Shown here one piece after another: positions 43,797 to 53,718 of a stretch of 64,000 bases of DNA. The translations under genes were made by a program, and so were the position numbers. This DNA is from Spirochaetota bacterium (GTDB lineage Bacteria; Spirochaetota; UBA4802; UBA5550): assembly GCA_017999915.1 (NCBI GenBank), contig JAGNKX010000006.1, forward strand, positions 128,077 to 192,076. Direction: 5' to 3'. Position 1 is the stretch's first letter. Every line of letters begins with the position of its first letter. The notes below the pieces were generated by a model. The model did no database searches and had not been told where the DNA came from. It saw only the letters and a list, made by a program, of their open reading frames with translations.

Positions 43797-44396
43797 ATGA
43801 GCATAAAAGATAAAATGATGGATTCAATGATGGGGAAGATGAGCGCCGAAGAAAAACGGCAGATGATGGAAGCGATGATGAGCAGGTTTTTTGATACTAT
43901 GACGAAGGAGGAAAAACAGAACATGATGCAGGCAATGATGGATAAATTCTTCGGGACCATGTCGGCTGAAGAGAAAAGGGAGATGATGAGCGGCATGATG
44001 CCGAAGATGATGGCGGGCATGATGGGCGGAGGCGGATCCCCCATGATGGGCATGATGAAAAACATGATGGGAAAAATGATGGGCGGAAAAAAGGAAGGCG
44101 ATGAGAAGGAAAGCGGCCCCATGGGATTCAATCCGATGGAAATGTGCCAGAAGATGATGATGAACATGGGAAAAACGAGCGAGATGGCGAGCTATGCCAC
44201 CCCGGAAGTGCGCGCGCTGTTTGAAGAATGGTCGGAACAAATAGAAAATGAGATCTACAATTACCTGAAGGAAACCGGGACGGTTGATCCTGATAACCTT
44301 GCCGAGCATTTCAAGCTTTCAAAAGACAGCATCAATTTCTTTTTGTCCAAGCTTGCGCAAAAGGGAAAAATCAAGCTGAAAGCCGAGAAAGCATAA
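43797..44396 (+). CDS. Methionine-rich protein with C-terminal winged-helix-like domain
   Basis: The protein has 199 residues, of which about 40 are Met, almost all in residues 1-140. The N-terminal half has three near-repeats of the form SAEEKRQMMEAMMSRFFDTM, then runs such as MMPKMMAGMMGGGGSPMMGMMKNMMGKMM. The last ~55 residues (NEIYNYLKETGTVDPDNLAEHFKLSKDSINFFLSKLAQKGKIKLKAE) look like a small winged helix. There is no signal peptide, so it is cytosolic. Met clusters bind Cu(I) or Ag(I) in known copper proteins; the ArsR neighbour supports a metal role. The middle resembles no family I know. Starts after GGAGG, 12 bp after the ArsR stop. Confidence 0.85.
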   Translation: MSIKDKMMDSMMGKMSAEEKRQMMEAMMSRFFDTMTKEEKQNMMQAMMDKFFGTMSAEEKREMMSGMMPKMMAGMMGGGGSPMMGMMKNMMGKMMGGKKEGDEKESGPMGFNPMEMCQKMMMNMGKTSEMASYATPEVRALFEEWSEQIENEIYNYLKETGTVDPDNLAEHFKLSKDSINFFLSKLAQKGKIKLKAEKA

Positions 44397-47429: not shown

Positions 47430-47459
47430 CATTAAATAAATCGAGGAGAGGTGCGTGAG

Positions 47460-48029
47460 ATGTTACAGTATGGTATGCTGGCCGGTTTTATTTCATTCTC
47501 GATCGTTCTGGCGCTGTTCGTGATACGGATCGTTTCGAGGGGCATCAGCATTGTTGCCAGGCCGCCTATCAATCCGCTGGCATTTGTAACAGCCAAACTA
47601 TGCGCCTTTTCTTCATGCTTTTTCATCCCGGCCGGTATTATCCGGCCGGAGCTGAAATGGTATGAGGCGCCGGAATGGCTGGGCCTGACCGCATTGCTGC
47701 CGTTTTTCTCCGGGATAGTTATCGCGGCTGTGGCAATGAAAAAGCTGGGCGATGATCTTATCTTCGGACTTCCTGAAGGCTCTATAAGCTCCCTTAAAAC
47801 CGATGGGATCTTCAGGTTCAGCAGAAATCCTCTCTACCTCGGATTCATCCTGCTCATCCTGTCATCGTGCCTGATTACGCCGAATCCCTTCAATTTTGCG
47901 GCGGCAATCATTGCGATTCTCATTCATCACAGGATAATCCTGCAGGAGGAGAATTATCTGTTGTCCAGGCTCGGGGATAGGTATAAGGATTATATGAAAG
48001 CGACAGGGAGATATTTATTACGCATATAG
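47460..48029 (+). CDS. Isoprenylcysteine methyltransferase-like membrane protein (PEMT fold)
   Basis: The protein has 189 residues from the ATG at 47460, nine bases after GAGGAG; a GTG at 47451 is too close to the ribosome site. About five membrane segments. The C-terminal part TDGIFRFSRNPLYLGFILLILSS and LQEENYLLSRLGDRYKDYMKATGRYL carries the RNP/RHP-like and EE..YxxY motifs of ICMT/PEMT methyltransferases. Second member of this superfamily within 3 kb. It probably ends the operon of the mini-proteins. Substrate unknown; modification of a thiol or lipid is a plain guess. Confidence 0.82.
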   Translation: MLQYGMLAGFISFSIVLALFVIRIVSRGISIVARPPINPLAFVTAKLCAFSSCFFIPAGIIRPELKWYEAPEWLGLTALLPFFSGIVIAAVAMKKLGDDLIFGLPEGSISSLKTDGIFRFSRNPLYLGFILLILSSCLITPNPFNFAAAIIAILIHHRIILQEENYLLSRLGDRYKDYMKATGRYLLRI

Positions 48030-48085
48030 TGGAATTGGTATAATCAGCAGGAAGCGCAGGTCATAAATAATTATTCTTTATTTGC

Positions 48086-48119
48086 TTGACAATTATTGCA
48101 ATATTGGCAAAATTGTCAA
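48086..48119. promoter_or_regulatory. Operator of the arsenic-island ArsR
   Basis: TTGACAATT (48086-48094) and its exact complement AATTGTCAA (48111-48119) form a 9-bp inverted repeat. The first arm is also a perfect -35. TTGTCAAATTGTCA at 48508-48521, before the thioredoxin gene, repeats the half-site, so ArsR may also bind there. Confidence 0.7.
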
Positions 48120-48141
48120 ATATTCATTAAAGGATAATCAG

Positions 48142-48477
48142 ATGGATCCGAAAGTCTGGTCATTGTGCGAAGCCCGAGCCAATATAATCAAAGCAGTCTC
48201 TCATCCGGCGAGGCTATTTATAGTAGAGGAGCTGCAAAAGGGAGAGAGGTGCGTGTGTGAATTGACCGAAATGCTGGATTTCGATACATCCACTATATCG
48301 AAGCACCTGTCCATATTGAAAAATGCCGGCATCCTCGGCGACAGGAGAGATGGAACCAAAAGCATTTATTTTTTAAAGGTTCCCTGCATACTCAACTTCT
48401 TCGGGTGTATTGAGGAAGTGATGGAATCGAATCTTAAACAGCAGAATGAGATTCTCATGACCTGCAAGAAAAGGTAA
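48142..48477 (+). CDS. arsR: ArsR-family arsenic-responsive repressor
   Basis: The protein has 111 residues from the ATG at 48142. Winged helix ~10-85. GERCVCELTEMLDFDTSTISKHLSIL places Cys37 and Cys39 in the alpha3 CVC motif, the As(III)/Sb(III) site of ArsR proteins. Further Cys residues follow in PCILNFFGC and MTCKK. It heads the arsenic island and has a palindromic site at its promoter. Gap to the thioredoxin gene is 65 bp with a second half-site pair. Confidence 0.92.
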   Translation: MDPKVWSLCEARANIIKAVSHPARLFIVEELQKGERCVCELTEMLDFDTSTISKHLSILKNAGILGDRRDGTKSIYFLKVPCILNFFGCIEEVMESNLKQQNEILMTCKKR

Positions 48478-48542
48478 GTAAATTTTTTTAAAGTATTTAT
48501 GGCGATTTTGTCAAATTGTCATAATTAAGCTTTAGGAGGAAC

Positions 48543-48782
48543 ATGATGTTGCTGGAAATACTCGGAAGCGGCTGCGCCAAGTGCAAAAAACTCGAGGAGT
48601 TGACGAAAGAGGCGGTTGGTGAAATGGGAGTCGATGCTTTTGTAAATCATGTCACAGACATCAAGGTAATAATGAACTATGGCGTCATGACCACGCCAGC
48701 CCTGGTAGTTGACGGAGTGGTGAAGGTCGCCGGTAAAGTGCCGTCTAAAGATGAAATTAAAAAATTGATAAGCACTAAATAG
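48543..48782 (+). CDS. Small thioredoxin-fold protein (redox-active disulfide family)
   Basis: The protein has 79 residues. The CxxC motif GSGCAKC (Cys11/Cys14) opens the fold, and GVMTTPALVVDGVVKVAGKVPS holds the cis-Pro loop. This matches the MTH895-type mini-thioredoxins often found next to DUF318 permeases. It could reduce ArsC or feed electrons to the ArsF-like protein. Start after AGGAGGAAC. 11 bp before the permease. Confidence 0.88.
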   Translation: MMLLEILGSGCAKCKKLEELTKEAVGEMGVDAFVNHVTDIKVIMNYGVMTTPALVVDGVVKVAGKVPSKDEIKKLISTK

Positions 48783-48793
48783 AGGATAGATTC

Positions 48794-49873
48794 ATGAGCG
48801 AGTGCTGTACCGGGAATAATACGAGTCCAACCATTGACTCTCAAAACAATGAGAGAAAAATAAAGCTGACGGCCCTATTGCCGTTATTGCTCATCCCTGT
48901 TGGTATCGTTCTGTATATTTTTCTTGAAAGCGGTGTAAATTACATTGTCTATTCCTTGCTTGGATTGGACAAGACCTCGCATCTTACCGAAGCGATACGC
49001 TTTTTTCTGTTTGAAGTGCCCAAGGTCCTGCTGCTTCTGACATTCATCGTTTTTGTCGTTGGCATTATCCGTTCCTTTTTTTCACCGGAAAAAACACGCA
49101 AAGCCCTGGAAGGGAAGCCCCTCTTTGTTGGAAACATCATGGGAGCCACCCTCGGTATTGTAACGCCATTTTGTACCTGCTCCGCGATCCCGCTTTTTCT
49201 CGGATTCATGGAGGGCGGCATCCCCCTGGGTGTCACATTCTCCTTTCTGGTGGCGGCTCCCATGATCAATGAAGTCGCGCTCGTGCTCCTCTTCGGTCTG
49301 TTTGGATGGAAGACGGCTGTTTTATACGCCTCCACCGGCCTTATTATCGCGATACTGTCCGGCTGGATCATCGGTAAACTGAAAGTTCAGCGTTTTGTCG
49401 AGGATTGGGTTTATGAAATAAAGGCGGGGAAAATCGAGATCGAAGAAAGAAAAATAACATTCATTGAAAGAATACAGGCGGGATATCTTGCCGTAATAGA
49501 TATCGTCTCAAAGGTGTGGGTATATATCGTGATCGGGATTGCCGTGGGAGCGGGAATACACGGTTACGTTCCGGAGAATTTCATGGCGTCCATCATGGGA
49601 AAATCGGCATGGTGGTCTATACCGGTGGCTGTTCTCATCGGCGTGCCCATGTATTCGAACGCAGCCGGCATTATCCCGATAGTCCAGGCCCTTCTCGAAA
49701 AGGGCGCGTCCCTCGGGACCACGCTTGCCTTCATGATGTCGGTCATCGGGCTTTCGCTTCCGGAGATGATTATTTTAAAAAAGGTCCTTAAGCTGCCGCT
49801 GATCTTCATATTTGTCGGCATCGTTGCGGTGGGCATTATGATCGTTGGATATGTTTTCAATCTGATATATTAA
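48794..49873 (+). CDS. DUF318 family permease (ArsP-like organoarsenical exporter)
   Basis: The protein has 359 residues with about eight membrane helices. The hallmark GIVTPFCTCSAIPLFLGF (Cys127 and Cys129) and VAAPMINEVALVLLFGLFGW repeat with IGVPMYSNAAGIIPIVQALLEKG later. Characterised ArsP proteins of this family export trivalent methyl- and aromatic arsenicals. The N-terminal SECCTG adds two Cys. Co-transcribed with the mini-thioredoxin 11 bp upstream and the DGC protein 28 bp downstream. Confidence 0.88.
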   Translation: MSECCTGNNTSPTIDSQNNERKIKLTALLPLLLIPVGIVLYIFLESGVNYIVYSLLGLDKTSHLTEAIRFFLFEVPKVLLLLTFIVFVVGIIRSFFSPEKTRKALEGKPLFVGNIMGATLGIVTPFCTCSAIPLFLGFMEGGIPLGVTFSFLVAAPMINEVALVLLFGLFGWKTAVLYASTGLIIAILSGWIIGKLKVQRFVEDWVYEIKAGKIEIEERKITFIERIQAGYLAVIDIVSKVWVYIVIGIAVGAGIHGYVPENFMASIMGKSAWWSIPVAVLIGVPMYSNAAGIIPIVQALLEKGASLGTTLAFMMSVIGLSLPEMIILKKVLKLPLIFIFVGIVAVGIMIVGYVFNLIY

Positions 49874-49901
49874 ACTATATAGCAAAAAGGGGAGGATTAT
49901 T

Positions 49902-50300
49902 ATGGCTGATTGTTGTTCTGGCGGCGTAAAACTATTGTATTCATGCTCCGGCGCGGCCGATGTTGGCCAGATTGCGGACCAGGTTTCTCGAAAGCTCCGT
50001 GATAAGGGATTCGCGCGCCTTACCTGTCTTGCCGGTGTCGGAGCGGACCTTTCGGGCTTTGTTGAATCCGCCCGCGGCGCTGATCTGAACATTACCATTG
50101 ACGGCTGCGGGACCATGTGCGCGAAAAAAGCGCTCGAACGAGTCGGTGTTTCTGCTACCTCATATGTTCTGACTGATTTTGGCATTGAGAAGGGTAAAAC
50201 CCCTTTTACCGAGAAGATTGTGGCTGAATTGAGCGACAGGATCATGGGGCAGGGTGCGCCGATATCTGAAGCAAAGGCTTCGGGTTGCTCGTGCAGTTAG
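49902..50300 (+). CDS. DGC-domain putative zinc-binding protein
   Basis: The protein has 132 residues. It starts MADCCSGGVKLLYSCSGAADVGQIADQVSRKL, continues ITIDGCGTMCAKKALERVG (the DGC motif) and ends in SGCSCS. Three Cys clusters would make a thiolate metal site. Proteins of this family occur next to arsenic and thiol-stress genes; function is not established. It could be the partner that pairs with the ArsF-like protein in organoarsenical reduction, but this is inferred from position only. Confidence 0.82.
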   Translation: MADCCSGGVKLLYSCSGAADVGQIADQVSRKLRDKGFARLTCLAGVGADLSGFVESARGADLNITIDGCGTMCAKKALERVGVSATSYVLTDFGIEKGKTPFTEKIVAELSDRIMGQGAPISEAKASGCSCS

Positions 50301-50334
50301 ATCTTCTGATATGACATTATAAAAGGATTGCTTC

Positions 50335-50817
50335 ATGAAAATAAGAAGGATAGTGACTATTGTATTATCGATTTTTGTAGCTACTAGTATTGTCTACCTT
50401 GTCGCAACAGAAGTGCGAAAGCCGGATAAAACCGAAACAGCATCGGAAGGAACGCAACAAAATGCCGCGGCCATGGAAAACCATGCGATCACGGTCTATT
50501 ATTTTCATACAACGTTCCGGTGTCCAACCTGCCGGAAAATTGAGGCATTGACCGAATCGACGGTTAAGAACTTTTTTTCTGCGGAATTGGCGGAAAAGAA
50601 AATCATATGGAAGCCGGTAAATATTGAGCTGCCTGAAAACAGGCATTTTGCCGACGATTACAAGCTGTTCACAAAATCAGTGGTTATCGTTGATTCGGCT
50701 AGCGGCAAGCAGATACGATGGAAGAACCTGGATAAAATCTGGGAGCTGGTGCGGGATGAATCGGCTTTTACTTGTTATATTAAAAACGAGATAACAGGAT
50801 ATTTAAAGGGCATATGA
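50335..50817 (+). CDS. arsF: Membrane-anchored thioredoxin-like ArsF-family protein
   Basis: The protein has 160 residues. An N-terminal anchor (~5-25) and a Gln/Ala/Glu linker lead to a thioredoxin-like domain with YYFHTTFRCPTCRKIEALTE (Cys63/Cys66) and FTKSVVIVDSASGKQI. It matches the ArsF family named from the organoarsenical ArsEFG system, in which ArsE and ArsF reduce nitroaryl arsenicals and ArsG exports the amines. The stop overlaps the next start by 4 bp, so it is coupled to the ArsG-like permease. Confidence 0.82.
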   Translation: MKIRRIVTIVLSIFVATSIVYLVATEVRKPDKTETASEGTQQNAAAMENHAITVYYFHTTFRCPTCRKIEALTESTVKNFFSAELAEKKIIWKPVNIELPENRHFADDYKLFTKSVVIVDSASGKQIRWKNLDKIWELVRDESAFTCYIKNEITGYLKGI

Positions 50818-51512
50818 GCGAAGGAATATCATCCGGCTTGATTGCCGCCATCTGGCTGGGCATTCTCACGTCAATAAGCCCCTGTCCCCTTGCGACAAAC
50901 ATCGCCGCTGTCTCTTTTATCGGAAAAAACGCCGCTGAAGCAAAAAAGGTCTTTATCACCGGAACATTGTATCTGCTGGGAAGGGCGACCGCCTATGCCG
51001 CGCTTGCGGCGTTAATTGTCGCGAGCCTGCTTTCTATTCCGGCGGTGTCAAACTTTTTGCAGAGTTATATAAACAAGATACTCGGTCCGGTTCTCATCAT
51101 TGCCGGTATGCTTCTCATGGAGCTTGTAAGCCTTCCGGCCGGCAGAGGGACCGATACATCAAGGCTCCAGCGCCTTGCGGAAAAGAACCTTTTTGCCGCT
51201 TCCTTCGCGATGGGAATTATATTCGCTCTCGCCTTTTGTCCGGTATCAGCGGCATTGTTTTTCGGGAGTCTTATCCCTGTCGCTGTCCAACAACAATCGC
51301 CGGTCCTTCTCCCCGCTATTTATGGCGCCGGCACGGCCTTGCCGGTTTTATTCTTTGCGCTGGTGCTGGCTTTCGGTGCCAACTATCTATCAAAGGTTTT
51401 CAATGCCGTTTCCCGCGTCGAAGTGTGGGCGCGGAGAATTACCGGTGTGTTATTTATTTTGATAGGCGTATATTTCTGCCTCACCTACATCTTTAAAATA
51501 CAAATGTGGTAA
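50814..51512 (+). CDS. arsG: ArsG-family (CcdA-like) arsenical efflux permease
   Basis: The protein has 232 residues, about six membrane segments. The N-terminal GILTSISPCPLATNIAAVSFIG has the PCP of the CcdA/DsbD fold, and GIIFALAFCPVSAALFFGSLIP the second Cys. The ArsG family exports trivalent aminobenzyl arsenicals. Coupled by a 4-bp overlap to the ArsF-like gene, 14 bp before acr3. A plain CcdA role is less likely as no cytochrome-c maturation genes are near. Confidence 0.85.
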   Translation: MSEGISSGLIAAIWLGILTSISPCPLATNIAAVSFIGKNAAEAKKVFITGTLYLLGRATAYAALAALIVASLLSIPAVSNFLQSYINKILGPVLIIAGMLLMELVSLPAGRGTDTSRLQRLAEKNLFAASFAMGIIFALAFCPVSAALFFGSLIPVAVQQQSPVLLPAIYGAGTALPVLFFALVLAFGANYLSKVFNAVSRVEVWARRITGVLFILIGVYFCLTYIFKIQMW

Positions 51513-51526
51513 TGGAAGGTTGAATC

Positions 51527-52573
51527 ATGACAGAACAAGTATCCAGGAAACTTTCTTTTCTCGATCGCTTTCTGACACTGTGGATATTCCTCGCGATGTT
51601 CGCGGGTGTTTTTACCGGATATTTCTTTCCCGGCATCGTCGATTTCTGGAATCGGTTCCAGTCGGGAACGACCAATATACCGATTGCCATCGGCCTGATA
51701 TTGATGATGTACCCGCCTTTAGCCAAGGTCAAATACGAGGAGTTGGGCGATGTGTTTACCAACTGGAAGGTGCTCGGCCTTTCGCTCGTCCAGAACTGGA
51801 TCATCGGACCGGTGCTCATGTTCCTGTTGGCCATCGCGCTGCTTAACGGATATCCGGAATACATGGTGGGCCTCATCATGATCGGTCTTGCCCGCTGCAT
51901 AGCCATGGTCATCGTGTGGAACGACCTGGCGAGCGGCGATACGGAATACGCGGCAGGCCTGGTCGCCTTCAACAGCATCTTCCAGGTCCTGTTTTTCAGC
52001 GTGTACGCCTGGTTCTTTATTACCATCCTGCCGCCGCTTTTCGGCCTGAAGGGCAGCATCGTCGATATCACCATAGGACAGATCGCTAAAAGCGTTTTTA
52101 TCTACCTGGGCATACCCTTTATCGCGGGGATCATTACCCGTTTCGTTCTTCTTAAAGTCAAAACCAAAGAATGGTATCAAACGAAATTCATACCCAAGAT
52201 AAGCCCGATAACGCTGATCGCCCTGTTGTTCACCATCTTTGTCATGTTCAGCATGAAGGGCGAGTATATTGTGAAGATACCGATGGATGTCGTGCGCATC
52301 GCCATTCCGCTTTTGATTTACTTTATAGTGATGTTCATGGTCAGTTTCTTTATGAGCAAAAAGATCGGGGCCGGATACCCGGTGGCTGCGACTCTTTCAT
52401 TTACAGCGGCGAGCAACAACTTTGAGCTGGCCATTGCCGTGGCCGTAGCGGTCTTTGGTATAGGCTCCGGTGTGGCCTTTGCCGCAGTCATTGGGCCCCT
52501 CATCGAGGTGCCGGTCATGATAGGGCTGGTGAACGTGGCTCTTTATTTCAGAAAGAAGTATTTTGTATCTTAA
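51527..52573 (+). CDS. acr3: ACR3-type arsenite efflux transporter
   Basis: The protein has 348 residues with about ten membrane helices. [19 protein letters not shown] holds the essential Cys124 of the ACR3 family. Other family marks are [14 protein letters not shown] and [23 protein letters not shown]. It exports As(III) (some also Sb(III)) by proton antiport. The start follows GGAAGGT. An RNA-hairpin-like palindrome (52576-52595) separates it from the MtrA-like gene. Confidence 0.95.
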
Positions 52574-52575
52574 AG

Positions 52576-52595
52576 GCGAGGTCTCGTGACCTCGC
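52576..52595. repeat. Palindromic hairpin related to the 19447 element
   Basis: GCGAGGTC, TCGT, GACCTCGC. No T-run follows. It shares GCG-GGTC...GACC-CGC with the palindrome at 19447-19466. Confidence 0.65.
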
Positions 52596-52613
52596 ATTCC
52601 TGGAGTGCAATAA

Positions 52614-53291
52614 TTGTTAAAAGTTAAGCCACATCCGGATTATCCCTGTGAACCAGGGCGATATATCCGTGGCAATGATTTTTCTCCGGCAGCGGTAGTC
52701 ATTATCCTTAACACTGATGAGGATAAAATCCCTCCGGAAATTGAGGCCCTGGTGCGGGCAGGGGCTGAAACCGGAGCCGCCCTGTCAGGCACGGTGCAGA
52801 CGCCGAACATAGGCTTCGAGAAAATGATATGCAACATAGTGGCAAATCCGAATATACGCTATATCGTGCTTGGAGGACCGGAATCTGACGGTCATCAGAC
52901 TGGATCCGCCTTGAAATCCCTGCTTGCAAATGGCATTGACGAGAAGAAGAAAATCATTGGCACAGAGGCTATGCATGCGTGCCTCTACAATATCCCCATG
53001 GAATTCATCGAGCGATTCAGAAAACAGATAGCCCTTATTGACCTTCAGTTTCAGGGAGACCCAAACCTTATTCGCAAAGCGGTATGGTCCTGTTTCCAGG
53101 AAACACCGGTGGATTTTATGGGACATGATGTGCATGATCCCGGCGCTTATCCTGAGGAACCTCTTGCCGGGAAATTGACCTGGCAGGTCACTCAGCCCTG
53201 GTCGGTTCCCTGTGATAAGGGGGAACAAGATGCTGTTAATAAAGCAAAAGAGCTTATGGAACGGCTCAGGAAGAGAAATACAAATGAGTGA
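52614..53291 (+). CDS. MtrA-like corrinoid-binding-domain protein in the arsenic island
   Basis: The protein has 225 residues from a TTG at 52614 with GGAGTG upstream; no better start exists. It follows the MtrA fold closely: PNIGFEKMICNIVANPNIRYIVLGGPESDGHQTGSALKSLLANGIDEKKKIIG is the cobamide-binding region of tetrahydromethanopterin S-methyltransferase subunit A, with His93 at the place of the cobalt-binding His. The C-terminal membrane helix of methanogen MtrA is absent, so it is soluble. It lies between acr3 and arsC, whose start overlaps its stop. A corrinoid methyl carrier for arsenic methylation or demethylation is a tempting but unproven role. Confidence 0.85.
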   Translation: MLKVKPHPDYPCEPGRYIRGNDFSPAAVVIILNTDEDKIPPEIEALVRAGAETGAALSGTVQTPNIGFEKMICNIVANPNIRYIVLGGPESDGHQTGSALKSLLANGIDEKKKIIGTEAMHACLYNIPMEFIERFRKQIALIDLQFQGDPNLIRKAVWSCFQETPVDFMGHDVHDPGAYPEEPLAGKLTWQVTQPWSVPCDKGEQDAVNKAKELMERLRKRNTNE

Positions 53292-53718
53292 AAATAAATT
53301 ACAGATTTTATTCCTCTGCACCGGCAACTCCTGCAGGAGCCAGATGGCCGAGGGGCTGGCGCGTCATTTCAAGGGCGCCATCATGGAAGCGTGCTCCGCA
53401 GGCACGGAGCCGAAAGGCCTTGACCCGCGCGCTGTTGCGGTCATGGCGGAAATCGGCATAGATATATCCCGGCAGCGATCCAAGCATGTAAATGAATTTG
53501 CCGGCCGGGAATTTGATTTTGTGATTACCCTGTGCGGCGGGGCGCAGGAAACCTGCCCTTTCTTCCCGGGAAAGACAAAGACAATGCACGCGGGTTTCGA
53601 TGATCCGCCCGAACTCGCCCGTAGCGCCGCATCTGAAGAAGAGGCCCTCGGTCATTACCGGCGCGTCCGTGACGAGATACGGGTGTTCATTATGAAGTTC
53701 GAAGAGTTGTCGGCTTGA
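53284..53718 (+). CDS. arsC: Arsenate reductase, thioredoxin-coupled LMW-phosphatase type
   Basis: The protein has 144 residues from the ATG at 53284, overlapping the upstream stop by 8 bp. The P-loop LCTGNSCRS gives Cys12 and Arg18, the redox pair is Cys84/Cys91 (TLCGGAQETCPFF), and the DDPPE loop (~106-110) supplies the acid. All residues of the pI258-type ArsC mechanism are present. It makes As(III) for ACR3. Possible reductants are the mini-thioredoxin and ArsF-like proteins of the same island. Convergent with the flavin-reductase gene. Confidence 0.95.
   Translation: MSENKLQILFLCTGNSCRSQMAEGLARHFKGAIMEACSAGTEPKGLDPRAVAVMAEIGIDISRQRSKHVNEFAGREFDFVITLCGGAQETCPFFPGKTKTMHAGFDDPPELARSAASEEEALGHYRRVRDEIRVFIMKFEELSA

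Follow-up and report, generated by a model that had tools for sequence, protein, structure and literature searches.

The arsenic operon and its mtrA-like gene

Within the window, as the whole 64,000-nucleotide stretch analysed here is termed, nine co-directional genes occupy positions 48082-53718 in the order arsR, trx, arsP, DGC, arsF, arsG, acr3, mtrA and arsC, separated by intergenic gaps of no more than about 65 bases (Table 1). An earlier note, made from the DNA letters alone, had placed an MtrA-like corrinoid-domain protein between acr3 and arsC in an arsenic operon, and that placement holds: the mtrA-like gene, the eighth of the nine, begins 40 bases after the end of acr3, and its stop overlaps the start of arsC by eight bases, through which the two genes are likely, from the sequence, to be translationally coupled. 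The gene is tightly spaced and co-directional with core ars genes, and the arrangement recurs elsewhere. Control of the locus by a cobalamin riboswitch was considered and rejected, since Rfam gave no hit for the window or for any of the 33 related loci searched. About 50 bases before arsR lies the end of a gene for a membrane methyltransferase of the ICMT/PEMT type, which may share the transcript of the operon; a further window gene encodes a 199-residue protein that is unusually rich in methionine.

Table 1. Coordinates of the operon genes, of sites within the mtrA-like gene, and of associated genes in the window and at other loci (positions without a prefix are those of the window)
Feature	Position	Strand	Basis or remark
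ArsR/SmtB-family regulator, operon gene 1	48082..48477	+	PF01022; NF033788 81 bits, above cut-off
Small thioredoxin-like protein, 79 aa	48543..48782	+	clusters with Thioredoxin_3 protein of L077; HMM 129 bits
ArsP_1-family permease	48794..49873	+	PF03773 250 bits; reaches no specific NCBIfam model or equivalog
DGC-domain protein	49902..50300	+	PF08859 93 bits
arsF-family thiol protein	50335..50817	+	NF040494 118 bits, above cut-off
arsG-family permease	50814..51512	+	NF040495 275 bits, above cut-off
acr3, arsenite efflux permease	51527..52573	+	TIGR00832 447 bits, above cut-off
GGAG, probable ribosome-binding site of mtrA-like gene, 8 nt before TTG	52602..52605	+	read from sequence
mtrA-like gene, 225 aa, TTG start, stop at 53291	52614..53291	+	PF04208, NF002126, 5laa, AF2 model
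Pro64 codon, at the place of MtrA Glu54	52803..52805	+	alignments; Glu, Pro or Ala in family
His94 codon, counterpart of MtrA axial cobalt ligand His84 (in GHQTG)	52893..52895	+	alignments
ATGAGTGA, 8 bases shared by the end of the mtrA-like gene and the start of arsC	53284..53291	+	read from sequence
arsC, arsenate reductase, LMW-phosphatase/thioredoxin type	53284..53718	+	PF01451; TIGR02691 135 bits, below cut-off 174
ICMT/PEMT-type membrane methyltransferase	47451-48029		
Methionine-rich protein	43797-44396		
Radical-SAM genes	L107:5400-6485; L106:8050-9135; L026:6138-8370; L124:9095-10300		
HgcA genes	L124:7192-8385 (G000 contig C1); L028:2887-4128; L043:11124-12197; L046:6710-7762; L078:6997-8106		
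HgcB-like ferredoxin	L033:5823-6212		
AbrB/MazE-like small proteins	L043:10818-11114; L046:6409-6705; L089:227-550		
DUF166 proteins	L043:8256-8945; L094:9059-9781; L068:3199-3923		PF02593; also in L046, L069, L072, L084
Small proteins of methanogen ars loci	L083:6555-6848; L046:8574-8852; L075:10706-11026; L068:89-355		
mtrA-like C-terminal fragment (genome G003)	L121:4600-5300		
DUF4346 protein, Planococcus plasmid NZ_CP013660.2	L101:464-1840		

Family, fold and conserved residues

The mtrA-like protein scored 119.1 bits against PF04208 (MtrA; cut-off 25) and 187 bits against NF002126, 'tetrahydromethanopterin S-methyltransferase subunit A' (cut-off 161), and its best solved relatives are the MtrA proteins of Methanothermus and Methanocaldococcus (5laa, E 8e-31). 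An AlphaFold (AF2) model built from 53 family members (mean pLDDT 89) displays the MtrA Rossmann fold, with MtrA 5l8x as its top structural match (TM(target) 0.91, rmsd 1.8). The protein falls below the cut-off of TIGR01111, the equivalog for subunit A of the Na+-pumping Mtr complex (115.6 bits against 249), and gave no match to the HgcA model NF040863. Judged by sequence and model, the gene product is a soluble, MtrA-type corrinoid protein with the MtrA fold.

For MtrA the cobalamin-binding residues have been named, among them the axial ligand His84, to which Glu54 hydrogen-bonds and which it tunes (PMC4915002). The claim in the earlier note that the protein matches the cobamide domain of MtrA, down to the histidine of GHQTG, was borne out by alignment: His94 corresponds to His84 and shows no substitution among the 70 readable relatives; the same holds for Thr63, Asn65, Gly67 and Asn74 (Thr53, Asn55, Gly57 and Asn64 in MtrA), and Tyr17, the counterpart of Tyr18, is nearly invariant. 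Cobalamin would most likely be bound base-off/His-on through His94. Glu54 itself is replaced by Pro64 in the window protein and by Pro or Ala in 20/35 ars-linked and 7/35 unlinked members; an adaptation to the ars setting was nevertheless rejected, since independent tree pairs give it no support despite those raw counts. The conserved 109-GAIPF meander of MtrA is also not kept, the window protein having AMHACLYN there. Among the cysteines, Cys73 and Cys160 are nearly invariant in the family (three ars-linked members have Trp in place of Cys73, and one has Ser in place of Cys160), and Cys12, Cys123 and Cys200 are not conserved; a cysteine pair as an arsenite site was rejected because it is not kept across all ars-linked members.

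As the earlier note had observed, the membrane helix of MtrA is absent (best 19-residue Kyte-Doolittle mean past residue 165, -0.17), and the C-terminal helix is charged. About 55 conserved residues at the C-terminus (about 170-225) are specific to the mtrA-like group, which on a tree is set off from methanogen MtrA as a clade of its own with full support. The window protein resembles MtrA, the cobalamin subunit of the methyl-H4MPT:CoM methyltransferase (5l8x, 5laa), in fold, axial histidine, cobalamin-tail contacts and about 36% identity, and resembles the cytoplasmic MtrA homologues of methanogens in being soluble, but differs from MtrA in lacking the membrane helix, the Mtr partners, Glu54 and the GAIPF meander, and in having a C-terminal region, an ars context and a clade of its own. 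Some bacteria were already known to possess MtrA homologues with the conserved histidine (PMC4915002), so the protein type as such is not new. Part of a DUF4346 protein from Planococcus plasmids shares about 40% identity with the MtrA-like domain, and MtrA-type domains therefore occur also in aerobic bacteria, in another setting; spread of the mtrA-like gene on plasmids was rejected, the plasmid matches being only of the distant DUF4346 type.

Recurrence in arsenic loci of other genomes

In a sample of 393 Spirochaetota genomes, PF04208 was matched in 12, of which 11 carry a member of the mtrA-like group and the twelfth (G050) a different protein of 374 residues. A family set of 71 loci comprised 69 from a scan of GTDB genomes, the window and one additional locus (L014); linkage was defined as the presence of acr3, arsP, arsM or arsG within 7 kb, with neighbours labelled by HMM profiles built from them. 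A count of such neighbours, proposed as a check in the earlier note, found 35 of the 71 relatives to be ars-linked, in six named phyla and with varying gene order, the neighbours being acr3 (29 loci), arsP (25), arsG (14) and arsM (6). Linked members account for 12/18 loci in Spirochaetota, 13/16 in methanogens (listed as Methanobacteriota) and 4/9 in Actinomycetota, with one each in Myxococcota, Chloroflexota and Kiritimatiellota and three without a phylum assignment; an 'orphan' branch in Desulfobacterota has none in ten. Many contigs are short, and where the full 7-kb flanks are present the linkage is 14/25 loci.

An ars-type gene is directly adjacent on the same strand in 31 loci, and the placement of the mtrA-like gene varies, lying behind acr3, arsP, arsC, arsM or arsG or ahead of arsP, arsM or arsC; its end overlaps the start of arsM by 4 bases in L060, and it abuts arsM in L031, L032 and L068. 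In the window genome and in five relatives a single acr3 passes the cut-off; it is located in the mtrA-bearing cluster, and the mtrA-like gene found there is likewise the only one; the chance of such proximity is about 0.3% per genome (about 14 kb/4.4 Mb), the six being related genomes and not independent draws. Across the mtrA-like tree the linkage requires at least 16 changes of state, and the acr3 neighbours are in part divergent, sharing about 33% identity with the window copy. The association of mtrA-like genes with arsenic genes is real and broad, not local. Neither of the outcomes that the earlier note had named as refuting its idea, a failure of the histidine and cobamide-contact residues to align with MtrA and a lack of ars neighbours in other genomes, was obtained. 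A search of the open-access literature found no report connecting MtrA with ars genes.

Two further kinds of gene recur in the methanogen loci. Seven ars clusters have a DUF166 gene near acr3, and in some of these it is the gene that separates acr3 from the mtrA-like gene; small proteins of about 90-106 residues, of which two tested members have no Pfam match, are found repeatedly.

Arsenic loci without mtrA and candidate partners

As a control, 20 acr3 loci without an intact mtrA were examined from the same phylum, 10 of them from the same order. In the latter ten ArsP is present in seven, and ArsF and ArsG are common; all three are equally frequent in mtrA-less acr3 operons and therefore provide no specific pointer to an organoarsenic role of the mtrA-like gene. 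The earlier note had counted these genes as support for an organic-arsenic link, an argument that is not supported, and the PF03773 permease passes no organoarsenical-specific model; its naming of ArsF and ArsG stands, whereas that of ArsP reaches only the general family.

Beside mtrA-like genes there is no recurrent gene for a dedicated enzyme that would donate or accept the methyl group, which counts against a methyl carrier for arsenic. A URO-D methyltransferase was rejected as a dedicated partner, since it adjoins acr3 in L121 and in the mtrA-less L123 and nowhere else, and a radical-SAM protein was rejected as a recurrent partner, since it occurs both with and without mtrA. The radical-SAM family is found repeatedly beside acr3 in related genomes, and lies next to hgcA in the window genome. 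In L121 the C-terminal part of another mtrA-like gene lies near the second acr3 of genome G003, flanked by arsF on one side and by an assembly gap on the other; a URO-D-type gene lies immediately upstream of this fragment.

One-carbon metabolism and the HgcA connection

The window genome encodes CODH, the corrinoid protein CdhD, RACo, FTHFS and FolD, and therefore a Wood-Ljungdahl pathway with methyl-THF and a corrinoid pool. MtrH (PF02007) was absent from ten of ten genomes with an mtrA-like gene, the window genome included, under positive controls, and no ArsM above the cut-off was found in the window genome. The RACo activator gave no match in two genomes that carry an ars-linked mtrA (G122 and G127), a result that also counts against a methyl carrier.

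HgcA-type proteins surfaced in the search for CdhD, and were called true HgcA by the NCBIfam model (392-440 bits, cut-off 275). In four loci (L028, L043, L046 and L078, the last in the order hgcA-hgcB-arsC-acr3-mtrA) hgcA, ars genes and the mtrA-like gene belong to one cluster; hgcA also adjoins acr3 in L113 and L123, which lack mtrA, and in L121, in which mtrA is represented only by the end fragment before the assembly gap. Within Spirochaetota, HgcA exceeds the cut-off in 7/11 genomes with the mtrA-like gene versus 46/393 overall, a co-occurrence that is suggestive only, as both are concentrated in the same family. The window genome carries hgcA on another contig, as a gene separate from the mtrA-like one, and is a putative mercury methylator. 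The proximity of hgcAB to acr3, arsC and arsM was already known (PMC7438021), as was control of hgcAB by an ArsR-like regulator (PMC10349881). In L033 an HgcB-like ferredoxin is encoded 24 bases upstream of the mtrA-like gene and is a possible electron donor for the corrinoid. AbrB/MazE-like small proteins with cysteine-rich N-termini precede hgcA or arsM in three loci, and may correspond to the archaeal hgcAB regulator of PMC10349881.

A proposed corrinoid step in arsenic handling and its alternatives

The reading tentatively favoured here, at slightly less than an even chance, is that the mtrA-like product is a free-standing corrinoid methyl carrier, recruited to ars operons and acting on arsenic, with methylation as the favoured direction. 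Anaerobes would have brought an MtrA-fold carrier into their arsenic-resistance operons, where it would shuttle methyl groups between one-carbon metabolism and arsenic; ArsC would yield As(III), to which methyl-Co would donate its methyl group, and the resulting methylarsenical would then be exportable, by the same logic as that of HgcA with mercury. As(III) is methylated by methylcobalamin in the presence of thiols (PMC6950371), and MtaA methylates arsenic by methylcobalamin in methanogens (PMC13262295), so methyl donation is plausible without any further enzyme on the arsenic side. A cobalamin-linked methyl step would be the best explanation because of this chemistry and the HgcA parallel, although the sequence by itself would suit methylation and demethylation alike. 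Of the cobalamin-linked methylarsenic step proposed in the earlier note, the MtrA-type corrinoid protein and its recurrent ars context are retained, but a recurring partner enzyme did not appear. Several observations weigh against the favoured reading: (i) half of the family, including the entire Desulfobacterota branch, is not ars-linked; (ii) the tuner of the axial histidine, Glu54, is replaced in most ars-linked members; (iii) arsM is already present in some mtrA-bearing clusters; and (iv) ArsP, ArsF and ArsG are equally present without mtrA.

Comparison with known systems places the proposed carrier among several partial parallels. HgcA/HgcB likewise constitute a corrinoid methyl carrier in or beside the ars operons of anaerobes (PMC7438021, PMC10349881), but HgcA belongs to an unrelated fold family, of the CFeSP type, with a membrane domain and an NVWCAAGK motif; the ars operons of anaerobes would thus have taken up two unrelated corrinoid methyl carriers. 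ArsM, the arsenite SAM methyltransferase, would share its substrate with the mtrA-like protein, and the genes are adjacent in several clusters, but ArsM is a SAM-dependent Rossmann enzyme without a corrinoid. The MtaA case involves the same proposed chemistry (PMC13262295), but as a side reaction of a URO-D-type methyltransferase rather than through a dedicated carrier encoded in an operon. All other genes of the window operon are those of standard ars operons (arsR-acr3-arsC with arsP, arsF or arsG), which have no corrinoid carrier.

The opposite direction appears unlikely: the protein would be a component of an oxygen-independent demethylase, in which super-reduced Co(I) takes the methyl group from pentavalent methylarsenicals, As(III) passes to Acr3, and the methyl group passes to folate or a thiol. 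The position of acr3 as the commonest neighbour is consistent with that route, and the hosts look anaerobic while the known demethylase ArsI requires O2. Demethylation of dimethylarsenate by methanogens, which is thought to involve corrinoid proteins, offers a precedent (PMC10579292). The window genome has no ArsM above the cut-off, and the methylarsenicals would therefore come from outside. No substrate-specific methyltransferase is encoded nearby, however, Co(I) would need reductive activation for which G122 and G127 show no RACo, and ArsP-like permeases could simply export methylarsenicals.

It is likewise rather improbable that the protein serves as a general methyl carrier, or as an arsenic-insensitive stand-in, in one-carbon metabolism, its expression tied to arsenic stress and arsenic not being its substrate. 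The members outside ars loci, including all ten in Desulfobacterota, would be accommodated by such a role, and a supply of methyl groups from MtrAH to the Wood-Ljungdahl pathway, which the window genome possesses, has been proposed for bacteria (PMC9635834); the absence of MtrH from all ten genomes searched argues against it, and a closer association is suggested by the recurrence of the gene in ars operons of unrelated lineages, next to acr3 genes of different subfamilies.

A sensor, scavenger or sink, whose corrin cobalt or thiols would bind arsenite or methylarsenite without turnover, is very unlikely: the single domain without a fixed enzyme partner, the corrin ring exposed in MtrA (PMC4915002) and the two nearly invariant cysteines would suit it, but ArsR is already the sensor of the operon, and Cys73 and Cys160 are each replaced in some members, the other three cysteines not being conserved. 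Chance association, or the hitch-hiking of an unrelated gene on horizontally transferred ars genes, is extremely unlikely, since, for all the patchy spread over phyla and the many unlinked members, the linkage persists while gene order changes, is spread over the tree and involves divergent acr3 neighbours.

Under the favoured reading we infer that the protein binds cobalamin and would transfer methyl groups, with arsenic as the substrate and methylation as the direction. To our knowledge, the only well-defined routes of arsenic methylation and demethylation are those of SAM-dependent ArsM and O2-dependent ArsI, and both processes, in anoxic soils and sediments, affect rice, groundwater and gut exposure. 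The recurrence of the mtrA-like gene in ars operons of several phyla and of methanogens suggests that arsenic handling includes a B12-dependent step not described before. Anaerobic bacteria and methanogens might, as a possibility held somewhat more cautiously than an even chance would warrant, possess a dedicated ars-operon corrinoid methyltransferase system for arsenic, of the MtrA type, unrelated to ArsM and parallel to HgcA. If true, such a step would represent a missing route for anaerobes, and would connect arsenic with HgcA, a protein of the same clusters whose native role is unexplained.
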